A stretch of 64,000 bases of DNA, from contig JAJUGE010000001.1 of NCBI GenBank assembly GCA_029268305.1, forward strand, positions 1-64,000, read 5' to 3'. The position numbers and the translations under genes are program-made. Source of the stretch: Alphaproteobacteria bacterium. GTDB taxonomy: Bacteria; Pseudomonadota; Alphaproteobacteria; JAJUGE01. Below the pieces are notes generated by a model. It was not told where the DNA came from, did not search any database, and saw only the letters and a list, made by a program, of their open reading frames with translations. Below, piece by piece: positions 42,651-49,855 of this stretch (positions are counted from its first letter, which is position 1; each line of letters begins with the position of its first letter).

Positions 42651-44087
42651 ATGGATCCGGCCGCAACGCATCCCGAAGCAGCAGTCGATGCGATCCGGAG
42701 GAAGCTGGGGCCGGCTGGTTGGATCGACGATACGTCCGAGATGGCCGCTTACGTAATCGACTGGTCGCGTCGGTTCGGAGGCGAAGCTGTCGGCATCGCG
42801 CGTCCGAGTTCGACCGAAGAGGTTGCGGCAGTGGTGCGAGCGGCTGCAACCGCGGGCTTCGGTATTGTGCCGCAGGGCGGCAATACCGGGCTTTGCGGCG
42901 GCTCGGTTCCGATAGCGGGTTCCGGGAAGCCCGTTCTCATCCTCTCGTTGCAGCGCATGAACCGGGTGCGGGCGATCGATCCGGTCGACTACACAGTGAC
43001 GGCAGAGGCCGGCTGTGTGCTCGAGACCCTGCAGAAGTTCGCGGCCGAGCATGGCCGGTACTTCCCGCTGAGCCTGGCCGCTGAGGGGAGCTGCACGATC
43101 GGCGGAAATCTCTCCACGAATGCGGGCGGAACGAACGTCCTCAAATACGGCAATGCGCGCGAGCTCGCGTTGGGCCTCGAGGTGGTGTTGCCGGACGGTG
43201 AGATCTGGGACGGGCTGCGAAGCCTGCGCAAGGACAATCGCGGCTATGACCTGAAAGACCTGTTCATCGGTGCGGAGGGAACGCTCGGCGTGATCACGGC
43301 CGCCGTGCTGCGGCTCTTCCCGCTGCCGCGGGCGATCGCCGCGGCGCTCGTGGCGGTGAAGTCGCCGGAAGCGGCCCTCCTGCTGCTCGATCGGGCACGC
43401 GCAGCCAGCCGTGATTCTGTCGAGACTTTCGAACTGCTCCCCCGCGAGACCCTCGAACTGGTGCTCCGACACATACCCGGGATCCAGGAGCCGATGCCTG
43501 AGATCTCTCCGTTCTATGTGCTGCTGGAACTCGTTTCGACCGCTGACGGCGACGGTGAGACGGGGGAGCTCCTGGAGGGGCTGCTGGCATCCGCATTCGA
43601 GGAGGGTATTGCCACCGACGCCGTAGTGGCGAAGAGCGAGGCGCAGCGCAACGCTCTCTGGCGTATCCGCGAGAGCATCCCCGAAGCGGGCAGGGTGGAA
43701 GGCCCGTCGATCACCCACGACGTCTCGGTGCCCGTTTCGAAGGTGCCGGAGTTCTACCGCGCCGCCCTTTCGGCGATCGGAAAGGCGGCGCCGGGCGCGC
43801 GTGCATTCGGCTTCGGGCATCTCGGCGACGGCAATCTGCACTTCAGCATTCGACCGGCGCCGGGCGAAGACCCGCAAATCCTGATCGAGAGGGAAGCCGA
43901 GGTGAGCGCCCCCCTGTTCGAGCTGCTGGAGCGGATGAATGGATCCTTCAGCGCCGAGCACGGAATCGGGCAGCGCAAGGTCGGCCAGCTGGTCCGCTCC
44001 AAGAGCGCAGTCGAGATGCGGCTTATGCGCAGCATCAAGGATGCTTTAGATCCGCTTGGGATCATGAACCCGGGCAAAGTGCTGTGA
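42651..44087 (+). CDS. FAD-binding oxidoreductase, D-lactate/glycolate/2-hydroxyglutarate dehydrogenase type, 478 aa
   Basis: This is a GlcD/DLD-type flavoenzyme oxidising a D-2-hydroxy acid. The VAO-family FAD domain covers about 15-210 (PQGGNTGLCGGSVPI; GGNLSTNAGGTNVLKYGNARELALGLEVVLPDG). The C-terminal cap has FGHLGDGNLHFSI and ends AEHGIGQRKVGQL with LDPLGIMNPGKVL. The substrate is open between D-lactate, glycolate and D-2-hydroxyglutarate. The TGA stop overlaps the GTG start of the next gene (GTGA), so a conflict-type membrane protein is translationally coupled to it. Confidence 0.92.
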   Translation: MDPAATHPEAAVDAIRRKLGPAGWIDDTSEMAAYVIDWSRRFGGEAVGIARPSSTEEVAAVVRAAATAGFGIVPQGGNTGLCGGSVPIAGSGKPVLILSLQRMNRVRAIDPVDYTVTAEAGCVLETLQKFAAEHGRYFPLSLAAEGSCTIGGNLSTNAGGTNVLKYGNARELALGLEVVLPDGEIWDGLRSLRKDNRGYDLKDLFIGAEGTLGVITAAVLRLFPLPRAIAAALVAVKSPEAALLLLDRARAASRDSVETFELLPRETLELVLRHIPGIQEPMPEISPFYVLLELVSTADGDGETGELLEGLLASAFEEGIATDAVVAKSEAQRNALWRIRESIPEAGRVEGPSITHDVSVPVSKVPEFYRAALSAIGKAAPGARAFGFGHLGDGNLHFSIRPAPGEDPQILIEREAEVSAPLFELLERMNGSFSAEHGIGQRKVGQLVRSKSAVEMRLMRSIKDALDPLGIMNPGKVL

Positions 44088-45289
44088 AGGCGCCGGATCA
44101 GCCCGCGGAGGATCGGCCAGCCGCGCCGTCTATCGGGGGGTGGGGCGCTGCCGATGCTGTGACCGAGGCCGATGACGGGGGCCTGTTGCTGTCCGACGTC
44201 CGGCGCAGATTGCGTGACCACGTATCGGCGGACCGAGAACTGAGCACTCTCCGGGAGATCGTCGACGAGCGCGCACGATCGCGCGTTCTGATCGAGATGG
44301 CGGAACACCTGTCGCCGGTACAGCTGCACAGGGCCTTCGCCATCGCTCGGGAGATTTCGGACGAAGAGGCGCGCCGGGATGCTTTGGCGGCGATCGCCAT
44401 CCGGATCGTGCCCGGATCCGAGGCGGGTTTATCCAGGCGGATTGCCGCGCTGGCGGTGCAGTGGGCCCGGGGACAATGGTCGGATCGCCTGCTGATGCTG
44501 GTCAGCTTCGCGCTCGTCGCGGTCGCCTTCGCCGGCCTCGCTTGGATCTGCTGGTTCTGGTGGCTGCCGGTGGTCTGGGAGTGGGGCTTCGGTCGTCTCA
44601 CATGGGCGAGCCTCGTTGCGCCGTTCGCCATGATCTATCTCGTCATCATCCCCTTCGCCGCGGTCTGGCTTGCGCCCGCGATCACCAACTTCTGGGCGGA
44701 GTTCGGCGCGCTTCGGCAGGATGTCGAATCCGCCCGGGTGTCGCAGCAGGACATCGAGCAGGAGTTGAGGGAGGACGACCCGCAAGGGCTCGTTCTGATG
44801 TTGAGCTATAGCCGTGCCGTGCTCAGCGAATATTACGCGATCGCGATGAGCCAGGCGCAACGCAGTTTCCGCTATTGCCTGATTGCGATGTGGCTCGGGT
44901 TCGCCGTGCTCATCACCGGCGTCCTCGACAGCTTCCTGCCGATGCGAGGCCTGCTCCCCGGCTACCTCCCGCCAGGAACGGACGGTGTGGCCGCACTCGG
45001 CGCGGGTGGTGACGACAGGAACACCTTGGTGCTTTTGACAGGAGCCGTCATCGAGTTCATCGCGGCCGCTTTCCTGTGGGTCTACCGGTTCTCGATCCAG
45101 CAGCAGACCTACTACTATCGGCGGCAGCTCAGCCTGCACAACGCCCTGCTCGCCCACCGCCTCGCGACCACAATGGAGGCGAAGGACGACAGCACGAAGA
45201 TGATCGTCGAGCGGCTCCTGCAAGACATGGAGGGACCCTCGAGCGAGTTGCACGGCAGTCGCGGCATCATGGGATTGCTCAAAAGGTAG
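44084..45289 (+). CDS. Membrane protein with helical repeats and a TRADD-N-associated-like 2TM domain, 401 aa
   Basis: Not a known enzyme. Residues about 45-110 form one to one-and-a-half helical repeats (VDERARSRVLIEMAEHL, then ISDEEARRDALAAIA) like those found in bacterial NTPase/conflict proteins. Two TM helices follow (about 135-165 and 175-197), then a polar helix with YYAIAMSQAQRSFRYCLI. This last part and the final segment GAVIEFIAAAFLWVYR, which is followed by a Gln/Tyr-rich cytoplasmic helix, match what I recall of the cyanobacterial TRADD-N-associated two-TM domain. The GTG start overlaps the upstream oxidase stop. A sensor or pore role in cell defence is inference only. Confidence 0.75.
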   Translation: MKAPDQPAEDRPAAPSIGGWGAADAVTEADDGGLLLSDVRRRLRDHVSADRELSTLREIVDERARSRVLIEMAEHLSPVQLHRAFAIAREISDEEARRDALAAIAIRIVPGSEAGLSRRIAALAVQWARGQWSDRLLMLVSFALVAVAFAGLAWICWFWWLPVVWEWGFGRLTWASLVAPFAMIYLVIIPFAAVWLAPAITNFWAEFGALRQDVESARVSQQDIEQELREDDPQGLVLMLSYSRAVLSEYYAIAMSQAQRSFRYCLIAMWLGFAVLITGVLDSFLPMRGLLPGYLPPGTDGVAALGAGGDDRNTLVLLTGAVIEFIAAAFLWVYRFSIQQQTYYYRRQLSLHNALLAHRLATTMEAKDDSTKMIVERLLQDMEGPSSELHGSRGIMGLLKR

Positions 45290-45316: not shown

Positions 45317-45769
45317 TCAGATGCGGCCGCGATGGCCGCGCAGCTTCATCGTCAGGTGCTCGAGCGCCGAGAGTGTCTCGTCACTGACATGGTGCTCGAT
45401 GCCTTCGGCGTCGATCTCGGCGTTCTCGTCGCTGACGCCGATCGCCTTCAGGAAGTCGAGCACGATCTGGTGCCGGTGGCGCGACATCTCGGCCAGCTCG
45501 GTGCCGGCTTCCGTCAGGAAGATCGAGCGATAGGGGCGGGTCGTGACCAGGCCTTCCCGCTGCAGCCGGGCCACCGTCTTGTTGACGGTCGCGTGCGTCA
45601 CCCCGAAGCGCTCCGCGAGATCGACGATCCGGGCCTCGCCGTGCTCCGCGATGAGATCGGCGATCAGCTCGCAATAATCCTCCGCGAGCTCGGACTGTCG
45701 CGCCCGCCTGATCTGATCGAAGCTCGCTGCCTGCCGCTCCGCTGTGCCTAGCCGTCCGCCGCCGGTCAT
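45317..45769 (-). CDS. mntR: Manganese-responsive DtxR-family repressor MntR, 150 aa
   Basis: This winged-helix repressor binds Mn(II) and shuts off manganese import. The DtxR-type HTH is in ARIVDLAERFGVTHATVNKTVARLQREGLV. The metal ligands of B. subtilis MntR (D8, E11, H77, E99, E102, H103) align with D31, E34, H100, E122, E125 and H126, with identical spacing. ATG 45769 with TGGAG upstream is preferred over ATG 45838, which would lie next to the operator. It is divergent from mntABCD, with an MntR box between them. Confidence 0.93.
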   Translation of the reverse strand: MTGGGRLGTAERQAASFDQIRRARQSELAEDYCELIADLIAEHGEARIVDLAERFGVTHATVNKTVARLQREGLVTTRPYRSIFLTEAGTELAEMSRHRHQIVLDFLKAIGVSDENAEIDAEGIEHHVSDETLSALEHLTMKLRGHRGRI

Positions 45770-45831
45770 CTCACGCTCCACTGACACACCGGGAGAATGG
45801 GGGATCGCGAGCCGATTGACAATGATGCCGC

Positions 45832-45859
45832 TCGACACAAATGTAGCCGAGGCTACAAT
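45832..45859 (+). promoter_or_regulatory. Promoter of mntABCD
   Basis: TCGACA (45832-45837) and TACAAT (45854-45859), separated by 16 bases, form a good sigma-70 promoter reading into mntA. The MntR box at 45839-45860 covers the spacer and the -10 element, so a bound repressor would block polymerase. Confidence 0.5.
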
Positions 45860-45860
45860 T
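45839..45860. promoter_or_regulatory. MntR box
   Basis: The site AAATGTAGCCGAGGCTACAATT is cited here by position only beyond its core: TAGC-N4-GCTA, within the perfect repeat TGTAGCC-GA-GGCTACA (45842-45857). The core and spacing are those of the E. coli MntR box. It lies between mntR and mntA. Confidence 0.8.
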
Positions 45861-45876
45861 AGGCCGTGCCTTCGGA

Positions 45877-46893
45877 ATGCGAACGGTCAGGTCGATGTTC
45901 GGCGCGATGCGATTTCTCCGGATCGGTGGCCGCCGTCTTCTGGCGGCAGTCCTGGTCGTGGCGGTGCTCGGCTTGGCCGGCGGCGCCGTATCCGCCGCGG
46001 AGCAGCGATTCCGCGCGCTTTCGACGATCGGAATGCTGGGGGATCTGGTTGCGCGTATCGTCGGGGATGCGGCGACTGCCGAGACGCTGCTGGGACCGGG
46101 GGTCGACCCGCACCTCTACAAGCTCACCCGTGCCGACGTGCGCCGGCTGATGGCCGCGGACATCGTTTTCTACAACGGGCTCTTCCTCGAAGGGAAAATG
46201 GCCGACGCCATGGAACGTGCCGCGAGCGCCGGCCGGCCCGTACTGGCCGCTGCCGAGACGTTGCCGAAGAGCTACCTCCTCGCTCCGGCGGAATTCGCAG
46301 GTGCATACGATCCGCATGTCTGGATGGACGTGTCGGGATGGGCCCAGGTAGCGGAGGCGGTCCGCGGGAGCCTTTCCGAGTTTGCGCCAGAGCGCGCGTC
46401 CCTGTTCGAAGAGAACGCCCGGCGGCTTCAAAGCGAACTGGAACGCCTCGACACCTATGCCCGAACGGTCCTTTCGACGGTGCCGGAGGACAAGCGCGTG
46501 CTGGTCACGGCACACGATGCATTCAACTATTTCGGCCGCGCCTACGGCTTCGAGGTTGTCGGCATCCAGGGCATCAGCACGGAGTCGGAAGCCGGATTGC
46601 GCCGGATTCAGGAAATCGTCGACCTGCTGGTCGAGCGGCAGATCCCCGCCGTCTTCGTCGAGACCACGGTATCGGACCGCAATGTGCGGGCGCTGATCGA
46701 AGGCGCGGCCGCGCGCGGCCACGAGGTCGTCATCGGCGGCTCGCTCTATTCCGACGCGATGGGTGAACCCGGCACCTATGAAGGCACTTACGTCGGGATG
46801 ATCGACCACAACGTGACTACCATTGCCCGCGCGCTCGGGGGCGAAGTGCCGGAGAGAGGCATGAATGGCGAACTCGCAGTCGCTCGCAACTGA
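45877..46893 (+). CDS. mntA: Manganese ABC transporter substrate-binding protein MntA, 338 aa
   Basis: This is a cluster A-I (PsaA/MntC/ZnuA) periplasmic receptor. The signal peptide ends near AVSAAE. Metal ligand candidates are His in GVDPHLYKLT, His in YDPHVWMD, Glu in GISTESEAG and Asp in MIDHNVTTI, the His/His/Glu/Asp set of manganese receptors; the His-rich loop of zinc receptors is missing. The start may be ATG 45877, 45895 or 45907; all are in frame. Placement behind an MntR box supports manganese. It overlaps the ATPase gene by 29 bases. Confidence 0.92.
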   Translation: MRTVRSMFGAMRFLRIGGRRLLAAVLVVAVLGLAGGAVSAAEQRFRALSTIGMLGDLVARIVGDAATAETLLGPGVDPHLYKLTRADVRRLMAADIVFYNGLFLEGKMADAMERAASAGRPVLAAAETLPKSYLLAPAEFAGAYDPHVWMDVSGWAQVAEAVRGSLSEFAPERASLFEENARRLQSELERLDTYARTVLSTVPEDKRVLVTAHDAFNYFGRAYGFEVVGIQGISTESEAGLRRIQEIVDLLVERQIPAVFVETTVSDRNVRALIEGAAARGHEVVIGGSLYSDAMGEPGTYEGTYVGMIDHNVTTIARALGGEVPERGMNGELAVARN

Positions 46894-47653
46894 AGAGATC
46901 CAGGTTCCGGCCTTGGCTGCGCTGCCGGCTCTGTCGGTGCGGGACCTCACCGTCGCCTACGATCGGCAGCCGGTACTCTGGAGCGTCGATTATGTCTCGC
47001 CGTCTTCCGGACTGACCGCGATCGTCGGCCCCAACGGCGCCGGCAAATCGACGTTCATCAAGGCCTGCCTGGATCTCGTGCCGCGGCTTTCTGGGGAAGT
47101 GCGCTTCTTCGGGGAGCCGCTGCGCAAGCGCCGGCGGCAGGTCGGCTATGTTCCGCAGCGAAGCAGCGTCGACTGGCAATTTCCCGTTACCGTGCTCGAA
47201 GTCGTGGCGATGGGGCGATACGGGTTCATCGGCTGGTGCCTGCCGGTCAGCCGCCGCCACCGAAATGCTGCGATGGAGTGCCTGGAGAAGGTCGGCATGG
47301 CCGACTTGGCCGGACGGCAGATCGGACAGCTTTCCGGGGGACAGCAACAGCGGGTGTTCCTCGCGCGTGCGCTCGCGCAGGAAGCGCAGATCTACTTCAT
47401 GGACGAGCCTTTCGCCGGGGTGGATGCGGCGACCGAGCGGGCCGTGATCGATGTCCTTAAATCGCTGGACGACGAGGGCAAGACCGTGATCTGCGTGCAC
47501 CACGACCTGCAGACGGTCGCCGACTACTTCAGCTCGGTGCTGATGCTGAACCTGACGAAGATCGCCGATGGTCCGGTGGCGACCACACTGACTCAGGAGA
47601 ACATCGCCAGGACGTATCGCGGACGCGTGCACGACCTCAACCTCCGGGCCTGA
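46865..47653 (+). CDS. mntB: Manganese ABC transporter ATPase MntB, 262 aa
   Basis: This is the ATPase of the importer. Walker A is GPNGAGKS, the signature is LSGGQQQRVFLARAL, and Walker B is IYFMDEPFAGVD, with HHD for the H-loop (VHHDLQTVADYF). GYVPQRSSVDWQFPVTVLEVV is characteristic of Mn/Zn-type ATPases. GGAGAGAGG lies in front of the ATG inside mntA. It is followed by mntC after 4 bases. Confidence 0.95.
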   Translation: MANSQSLATEEIQVPALAALPALSVRDLTVAYDRQPVLWSVDYVSPSSGLTAIVGPNGAGKSTFIKACLDLVPRLSGEVRFFGEPLRKRRRQVGYVPQRSSVDWQFPVTVLEVVAMGRYGFIGWCLPVSRRHRNAAMECLEKVGMADLAGRQIGQLSGGQQQRVFLARALAQEAQIYFMDEPFAGVDAATERAVIDVLKSLDDEGKTVICVHHDLQTVADYFSSVLMLNLTKIADGPVATTLTQENIARTYRGRVHDLNLRA

Positions 47654-47657
47654 CCCG

Positions 47658-48899
47658 ATGGATGGGGCGCTGTCCGTCGCGCTGGAGGTGCTGACGTTCC
47701 GGGCGGGATACAACGCATCGGTGGTAACGCTCGGTGCGACTTGCCTGGGCGTCGCCGCGGGAGTGGTCGGCACGTTCACCTTTCTGCGCCGACGCGCCCT
47801 GATCAGCGACGCCATGAGCCATGCGACGCTTCCGGGCGTCGTGCTCGCGTTCCTGTTGGGGATCGCTTTTGGCCTGGAACAGCGCAACCTGCCGCTTCTG
47901 CTCGCGGGTGCGGCGGTTACCGGAGGCCTCGGTGTTTTCCTCGTCCAACTCATCACGCGCTCCAGCCGGATCACGGAGGATGCCGCTATCGGCATCGTTC
48001 TCAGCGTGTTCTACGGGCTGGGGGTGGTGCTGCTGACCTATGTTCAGTCGCTTTCGGTGGGAGGTCAGGCGGGTCTCGAATCGTTCATCCTCGGCCAGAC
48101 CGCGGCCATGCGACGCGACGAAGCTATCGCCCTGGCGATTCTGGCGTTAGCCGCGATCGTTTCCACGGTGCTTCTGTTCAAGGAGTTCCGGCTGGTGTGC
48201 TTCGACGCCGAGTTCGCGCGGGGCCTCGGCTGGCCGGTCTTCCGGATCGACCTGCTGATGGCCGGTCTCTCGGTCTTCGTCACGGTTATAGGCCTGCAGA
48301 CGGTCGGCCTGATCCTGATTGTGGCCCTGCTCATTCTGCCGCCGGTCGCTGCCCGTTTCTGGTCGGACGACCTTCGGACGATCGTCATCCTCAGCGGCTG
48401 CATCGGAGGAGCGAGTGCCTGGATAGGCGCAGCTCTCTCGGCCGCCTTCGCCGACCTGCCGACCGGCGGCATTATCGTGCTCGTCGCGGGCGTCCTCTTC
48501 GTCGTCAGTCTGCTTCTGGCGCCTCGACGGGGCGCGGTGGCGAACGGCTGGCGCCGGATGAGTCTCGCATTCAGGCTGCGTCGCGACCGGGCCCTCGCAG
48601 AGCTTCTCGCTGCCGAGCGTGAAGCAGGCCCCATCACGATCGGTCAACAAGCGCGGCTCTGGCTGATCCTGAGCGGCTACCTCCGCAACGGCCGTCTGAC
48701 GCCGCTAGGTCGGCAGCGGGCCATGGCCGCGGATCGGAATTTTCGCCTTTGGGAGGAGGTTCTGAGGAGCGACCGGGCGATGGTGCCGCCCGAGGCGGCT
48801 TTCGGGATCGATCCCGTCGAGCGGCTTCTGTCCACGGAGCAGCTTCGGAGCCTCGAGCGGGGGCTGCTGCGCCCGGCGGGACCGGAGCACGCATCGTGA
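47658..48899 (+). CDS. mntC: Manganese ABC permease MntC with degenerate MntR-like tail, 413 aa
   Basis: Residues 1-290 form the usual ABC-3 permease (TFTFLRRRALISDAMSHATLPG is the hallmark; eight or nine TM helices). About 120 extra residues follow. The tail contains LTPLGRQRAMAADRN, then FRLWEEVL, then DPVERLLSTEQLRSLERGLL, which align with the MntR dimer/metal region. At the positions of the MntR ligands it has F362, D385, E388 and R389, so the histidines are lost. This looks like a decayed, fused DtxR-type domain. mntD overlaps its stop by 4 bases (GTGA). Confidence 0.9.
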   Translation: MDGALSVALEVLTFRAGYNASVVTLGATCLGVAAGVVGTFTFLRRRALISDAMSHATLPGVVLAFLLGIAFGLEQRNLPLLLAGAAVTGGLGVFLVQLITRSSRITEDAAIGIVLSVFYGLGVVLLTYVQSLSVGGQAGLESFILGQTAAMRRDEAIALAILALAAIVSTVLLFKEFRLVCFDAEFARGLGWPVFRIDLLMAGLSVFVTVIGLQTVGLILIVALLILPPVAARFWSDDLRTIVILSGCIGGASAWIGAALSAAFADLPTGGIIVLVAGVLFVVSLLLAPRRGAVANGWRRMSLAFRLRRDRALAELLAAEREAGPITIGQQARLWLILSGYLRNGRLTPLGRQRAMAADRNFRLWEEVLRSDRAMVPPEAAFGIDPVERLLSTEQLRSLERGLLRPAGPEHAS

Positions 48900-49855
48900 C
48901 CTGGATGGAGTTCATGCAGGTCGACTTTCCCGCCCTCGCCACGGCGATCCTGGCGGCGCTGATCTGCGGGGTTCTCGGGAATTTCCTCGTCCTGCGACGC
49001 CAGAGCCTGATGGGAGACGCGATCTCCCATGCCGTGCTCCCCGGCATCGTGGTCGGCTTCATCGTCGCCGGATCGCGATCGACGCTGCCGATGATGGGGG
49101 GTGCGGTTGGGGCGGCCGTCCTCGCCGGCGTTCTGATCGAGCTCGTACGCCGGTTCGGCCAGATCGAGCCCGGCGCCGCCATGGGGGTGGTGTTCACGGT
49201 GATGTTCGCCCTCGGCGTGGTCCTGCTGGAGCAGGCGGCGGCGCATAGCGTCGATCTGGACGCCGACTGCGTCCTCTATGGACAACTCGAGGACATTCTC
49301 TGGTTCGAGGCCAGCGGCTGGTGGTCGCTGTTCGACCGGGAGGCGCTTTCCGGTCTGCCGAGGGAGCTGACGACCCTGGCAGTGCTCGCCCTGGTCACGT
49401 TCGCGCTCCTCGGGCTGTTCTACAAGGAGATCAAGATCACCACGTTCGATGCCGGGCTGGCGAGTGCTCTCGGAATTCCGGCGCAGGCTTTCCACTATGG
49501 GCTGATCCTGTTCGTCTCGCTCGCGGCGATCGCTTCGTTCGAAGCGGTCGGCTCCATTCTGGTTATCGCGATGCTGATCTGCCCGGCGGCGACTGCCCGG
49601 TTGATCACCGACCGGTACGGAGCCCAGCTCATGCTGAGCGGCCTCTTCGGTGTCGGGAGCGCCGTCTTCGGCTATGTAGCAGCGGGGTTCGTCCCGGGGT
49701 GGTTCGGCGCCGATTGGGCGTTGAGCTCTTCGGGGATGATGGCGGTCGTGTCCGGCGTCTTCTTCGGCATCGCTCTCGTCGCCGGGCCGAGATACGGTGT
49801 GCTGGCGACACGTGTGTTCCGAGCTGCACCCGTGCCGCGGCCCGAGACGATCTGA
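48896..49855 (+). CDS. mntD: Manganese ABC permease MntD, 319 aa
   Basis: This is the second ABC-3 family permease. LVLRRQSLMGDAISHAVLPGIVVGF is the family signature, with nine hydrophobic segments and the end block AMLICPAATARLITDRY. GTG 48896 overlaps the mntC stop (GTGA); an ATG three codons later (48905) is an alternative. It lacks the regulatory-type tail of MntC. The orphan binding-fold gene begins 13 bases after its stop. Confidence 0.93.
   Translation: MTWMEFMQVDFPALATAILAALICGVLGNFLVLRRQSLMGDAISHAVLPGIVVGFIVAGSRSTLPMMGGAVGAAVLAGVLIELVRRFGQIEPGAAMGVVFTVMFALGVVLLEQAAAHSVDLDADCVLYGQLEDILWFEASGWWSLFDREALSGLPRELTTLAVLALVTFALLGLFYKEIKITTFDAGLASALGIPAQAFHYGLILFVSLAAIASFEAVGSILVIAMLICPAATARLITDRYGAQLMLSGLFGVGSAVFGYVAAGFVPGWFGADWALSSSGMMAVVSGVFFGIALVAGPRYGVLATRVFRAAPVPRPETI

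Follow-up and report, generated by a model that had tools for sequence, protein, structure and literature searches.

A predicted four-TM protein joining a short NB-ARC-type helical repeat to a PF20712 domain in an alphaproteobacterium

The window, that is, the whole 64-kb stretch of alphaproteobacterial DNA analyzed here, contains a gene for a 401-aa protein that lies between the gene of a flavin oxidase and a group of manganese-related genes. The features of this locus are as follows:

42651..44087, + strand: FAD-linked oxidase, GlcD-like; operon neighbor upstream, with a GTGA overlap
44084..45289, + strand: gene of the repeat and four-TM protein, 401 aa, GTG start
44183..44467, + strand: helical-repeat domain, residues 34-128, six short paired helices (repeat profile, AlphaFold)
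44264-44398, + strand: part matching the repeat of NB-ARC proteins, residues 61-105 (profile)
44483..44680, + strand: TM1 and TM2, residues 134-199 (hydropathy and AlphaFold model)
44681..44863, + strand: long helices or coiled coil joining the TM pairs, residues 200-260, up to the YY-x5-QAQRSF motif
44765..45259, + strand: extended PF20712 domain, residues 228-392, made up of an amphipathic helix, TM3, an extra-long outer loop, TM4 and C-terminal helices
44933..45010, + strand: TM3-TM4 loop, residues 284-309
45317-49855: divergent mntR, then the genes of a Mn/Zn-type ABC transporter (substrate-binding protein, ATPase, two permeases)

The start codon GTG of the 401-aa gene overlaps the stop codon TGA of the oxidase gene by 4 nt (GTGA). 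With a codon-position GC of 0.66/0.47/0.83 it differs little from the adjoining genes and thus has the appearance of a resident coding gene, and we read an ORF on the opposite strand (44429-45253) as a shadow ORF due to the high GC content. No Rfam family and no tRNA was detected in the window. Hydropathy places four TM segments at about residues 134-166, 173-199, 261-284 and 313-338. A preliminary description, made from the letters of the sequence, had given this reading frame with its GTG start, its length of 401 aa, the GTGA overlap and four TM helices, all of which are confirmed. Arginines border the TM segments at the N-terminal side, between the two pairs and at the C-terminal side, a placement in the sequence that suggests an N-in/C-in topology.

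An AlphaFold model was obtained from 14 sequences with medium confidence (mean pLDDT 71, pTM 0.47). It places N-terminal helices at residues 34-44, 49-58, 62-73, 78-90, 94-108 and 115-128, followed by a long TM1, a TM2 helix extending to residue 229, a helix running through TM3 (235-284) and another through TM4 (309-363). The predicted layout of the protein is accordingly about three helical hairpins, two TM segments, a coiled coil, two further TM segments and C-terminal helices, probably in N-in/C-in orientation. Fold searches against the PDB and viral models returned no significant match, and no solved structure of a relative was found.

The last pair of TM helices had been ascribed to the cyanobacterial TRADD-N-associated two-TM domain, with an HMM search as the check and a missing match as evidence to the contrary. 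The search gave a significant match of the protein to Pfam PF20712 (CyanoTRADDas_TM), with 43.6 bits against a curated cut-off of 24.3 (E 3.2e-11). PF20712 was the sole family in a Pfam scan up to E 10, in which TRADD-N was absent, while NCBIfam gave no match and PADLOC one stray match (E 0.22). The protein keeps the pre-TM QA/QS motif and the GF in the first TM of the domain; both the QAQRSFR and the IEFIA motifs pointed out beforehand align with the family. A search for the motif YY-x5-Q[AS]-x2-S-F-x9-GF located it a single time in the window and never in shuffles. We aligned the domain over 18 members, all of which match PF20712, and found that their homology reaches past the limits of the Pfam model and includes a helical tail, giving an extended domain of about 150 aa. 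The family profile A6 scores 137 bits on the 401-aa protein, whose own row is included in that profile. The spacing from the conserved F to the G in the TM3-TM4 loop is 46 residues in the 401-aa protein versus 24-40 in the other 17 members, and this longest loop of the 18 is probably why the Pfam match is split. No paper on PF20712 was found under its accession or Pfam name in the literature collection searched.

The N-terminal part of the protein had been likened to the helical repeat of bacterial NTPase defense proteins. A tblastn search of plasmids with the N-terminal 100-residue repeat region gave eight records, each weak (E 1-6), yet every one of them (8/8) was cyanobacterial and annotated as an NB-ARC or equivalent regulator. 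Three of these cyanobacterial proteins carry NB-ARC, two of the three also EAD4, and they have long arrays of 31-32-residue repeats with a consensus of roughly [DN]Ex2RAxxLxxLxx[KH]LPxELxxEALAxAREI. From these three proteins we built a repeat profile. In its one-unit form it ranked the 401-aa ORF first among the 562 ORFs of the window, but at 11 bits; in its two-unit form it scored 31.6 bits (E 6e-9 among the window ORFs), compared with top scores of 17.8 bits among 5000 shuffles and 6.7 bits among 5500 decoys. Profiles made from each single cyanobacterial protein also rank the 401-aa ORF first. The recognizable repeat amounts to about 1.5 units, with no long array. A sensor-type helical repeat is therefore present, though short, and the purpose-built profile and the predicted hairpins agree with the likeness proposed earlier.

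The gene has a very restricted distribution. It was not found in 58 relatives, nor in one other genome of the host's taxonomic family (G001), and the PF20712 family profile did not detect it in 384 other alphaproteobacterial genomes, a sample that contained none of the same genus. Strict conservation as a housekeeping gene, which would have contradicted the preliminary description, is thus not what these genomes contain, and the gene is best read as accessory. PF20712 itself scored above the cut-off in 4 of 399 Pseudomonadota genomes, the source genome counted, and the repeat was found in one of 249 genomes, the source genome alone. As both modules are rare in Pseudomonadota, chance is unlikely to have brought them together in one gene; a second protein joining an NB-ARC-type repeat to PF20712 was sought and none was found. 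No close relative of the protein emerged from single-sequence scans of genomic and viral contigs, and a two-sequence scan gave no match.

A stricter DNA form of the YY-x5-Q motif, scanned over the genome and viral collections, yielded 17 loci, three of which (L024, L027 and L035) are not PF20712 members. The bacterial members belong to Flavobacterium, Soonwooa, Rhizobium, Pyrinomonadaceae, Planctomycetota, Gemmatimonadetes, Sulfotelmatobacter, Roseburia and an alphaproteobacterial MAG, and further members lie on viral contigs. Weak PF20712 matches in four other genomes (G321, G437, G645 and G022) look spurious, being fragments or other membrane and cell-wall proteins. Given this spread over many phyla, viral contigs, plasmids and an integron-like array, the name "cyanobacterial" misdescribes the family.

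Mobile and conflict-type company of the PF20712 relatives is frequent, though not universal. In one case (L013:9722-12813) the PF20712 gene is two genes away from that of a TIR protein, whose N-terminus weakly matches a SLOG-like (STALD) domain. Two are located on plasmids (L010 and L021), the latter near AbiGi, Fic and helicase-related genes. On viral contigs, one gene (L038:7823-8428) is flanked by tail-type genes and by an r1t-like holin with an amidase/glucosaminidase lysin, and another (L036:1460-3052), on a 6-kb contig with a large terminase, encodes vWA fused to PF20712. The latter is the sole collected member with another credible Pfam domain, which makes the TRADD-N association a naming rather than a defining feature of the family. 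In genome G513 the PF20712 gene (L011:9641-10384) forms a single unit of a 20-kb array in which a 111-156-nt repeat recurs in 29 copies at intervals of about 0.5-2.5 kb, an arrangement that resembles an integron cassette array. Other surroundings are ordinary, such as a universal stress protein gene (L028) or a cation-antiporter-like cluster (L029), and in many members a single N-terminal TM is present while effector and sensor domains are both lacking. An apparently conserved neighborhood of the PF20712 gene in Rhizobium was dropped, as the neighbors proved unrelated. In Flavobacterium the PF20712 gene (L023:5274-6553) lies directly 3' of an 8xMP (PF24838) gene, and the two possibly form a two-gene unit. 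Overall, the scattered and often mobile relatives support the view of PF20712 as a conflict-type domain.

The immediate neighbors of the 401-aa gene convey a different picture, as its chromosomal setting is metabolic, which speaks against a role in defense. The manganese genes, mntR and the Mn/Zn-type ABC transporter immediately downstream, were correctly recognized as a manganese island in the preliminary description and look like ordinary neighbors. NB-ARC was not detected in the source assembly, which is 92% complete, so that an NTPase elsewhere could be missed, and PADLOC revealed no credible defense gene among the flanking genes tested; its matches to the ABC ATPase and MntR reflect common folds. 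The earlier statement that no NTPase or other defense gene is adjacent is in line with these results. The overlapping oxidase, which is GlcD-like but below the equivalog cut-off, has a second FAD paralog in the source genome (C1:117645-119036; 50% identical to the window copy). The single copy of the family relative G001 is 77% identical to this paralog and 50% to the window copy; it thus corresponds to the former, and the window oxidase, for which G001 yielded no counterpart, is a divergent paralog.

Given their GTGA overlap, the two genes should be co-transcribed and are probably coupled in translation, and the protein could on these grounds be a membrane partner of the oxidase, for example a membrane dock for electron transfer. 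We consider this quite unlikely, since 31 other loci with oxidases of about 50-57% identity all lack a PF20712 gene downstream; in 12 of them an acyl-CoA dehydrogenase takes this place, in one case with the same -4 overlap. The PF20712 relatives are not found beside oxidases in the examined loci either, and no redox or cofactor motif was recognized in the 401-aa protein. The joining to a flavin oxidase that the preliminary description had stressed is therefore functionally unsupported, and the pairing looks incidental. About equally improbable is an origin from a prophage as a superinfection-exclusion or lysis-modulating membrane protein. This would suit the PF20712 genes that stand shortly before holin and endolysin (L038) or with a terminase (L036), but no phage gene was recognized around the 401-aa gene, its product and the L038 protein were both unmatched in 50,697 phage records, and PHROGs offered no convincing match for the family. 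A membrane scaffold or stress-response protein outside defense, in which the repeat would bring in a cytoplasmic partner and PF20712 would serve as an oligomerizing anchor, is a more serious alternative that we nevertheless regard as somewhat unlikely. It would agree with the relatives among ordinary genes (L028, L029), with the many members that combine one N-terminal TM with neither an effector nor a sensor domain, and with the host-like composition of the 401-aa gene, whereas the very patchy distribution, together with the recurrence on phage contigs and plasmids, is more in keeping with accessory conflict genes.

We posit, with a probability of roughly 0.4, that the 401-aa protein is an inner-membrane PF20712 effector of the four-TM form that is governed by its own repeat and operates with no separate NTPase. 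As the repeat is joined directly to the membrane module, an NTPase-free sensor-effector at the inner membrane is the simplest reading. The N-terminal repeat would serve in the cytoplasm as a sensor or as a docking surface. Once it has bound a trigger, be it a phage product or a stress signal from the host, the long helices on the cytoplasmic side of an oligomer could rearrange, and its TM pairs might permeabilize or otherwise disturb the membrane and so bring about cell arrest. The protein would in this way represent, in one chain, the STAND NTPase and the membrane effector that are split in larger systems. Oligomerization, sensing, the membrane effect and the defense role are what we infer from the domain content, and in the literature consulted we found no report of pore formation by any PF20712 member. 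This reading is favored by the domain match, by the NB-ARC-specific repeat, by the rarity of both modules and by the mobile or conflict-type company of relatives; the metabolic setting with no defense gene nearby, the shortness of the repeat, the lack of significant fold or DUF4231 matches and the medium confidence of the model count against it. A putative minimal conflict system that works is plausible. The stronger proposal, namely an immune switch that is encoded by one gene, needs no NTPase and couples a STAND-type sensor repeat straight to a four-TM membrane effector, appears rather unlikely; if true, it would show that the energy-dependent threshold step of conflict systems is dispensable. 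Should our main reading hold, the protein would be a compact NLR-like sensor-effector and provide a first functional handle on PF20712.

In its membrane part, the 401-aa protein resembles other PF20712 proteins. It shares with them the YY-x5-Q[AS]xxSF-x9-GF motif and the helical tail, and its second domain TM keeps the conserved G and the E/Q-F/I-I. Contrary to what the family name suggests, it lacks TRADD-N and its host is an alphaproteobacterium rather than a cyanobacterium. Four-TM proteins of this family also occur in Planctomycetota (L033), Soonwooa (L032), Pyrinomonadaceae (L026) and Rhizobium (L010, L025). All share with the 401-aa protein the order of two TM segments, a linker or coiled coil, the two-TM domain and a helical tail; the planctomycete protein is 34% identical to it over 151 aa. 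Their N-terminal tails are short and devoid of the repeat, and among all 18 aligned members the 401-aa protein alone has an N-terminal repeat in addition to the longest TM3-TM4 loop.

The arrangement of two TMs between cytoplasmic helices is like that of SLATT and of the SAVED-fused two-TM effectors, and SLATT has been suggested to act as a pore effector in conflict systems (PMC7159879). An hhalign comparison with the SLATT-like DUF4231 gave no significant link (probability 6%, with four sequences only), and other Pfam matches of PF20712 members were stray and weak (e.g., Saf_2TM, E 0.034). The repeat, in turn, is in register over residues 61-105 with that of the NB-ARC (AP-ATPase/STAND) proteins of Calothrix, Tolypothrix and Leptolyngbya plasmids. 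In STAND proteins, sensing of the invader falls to such repeats, and the threshold is set by the NTPase (PMC7159879); published work regards the repeats as sensors of invaders and certain multi-TM domains as possible pore-type effectors (PMC7159879, PMC8195603). While the cyanobacterial proteins have more than 10 units each, located C-terminal to NB-ARC, the 401-aa protein has about 1.5 units that precede the TMs, in a chain with neither an NTPase nor an EAD.
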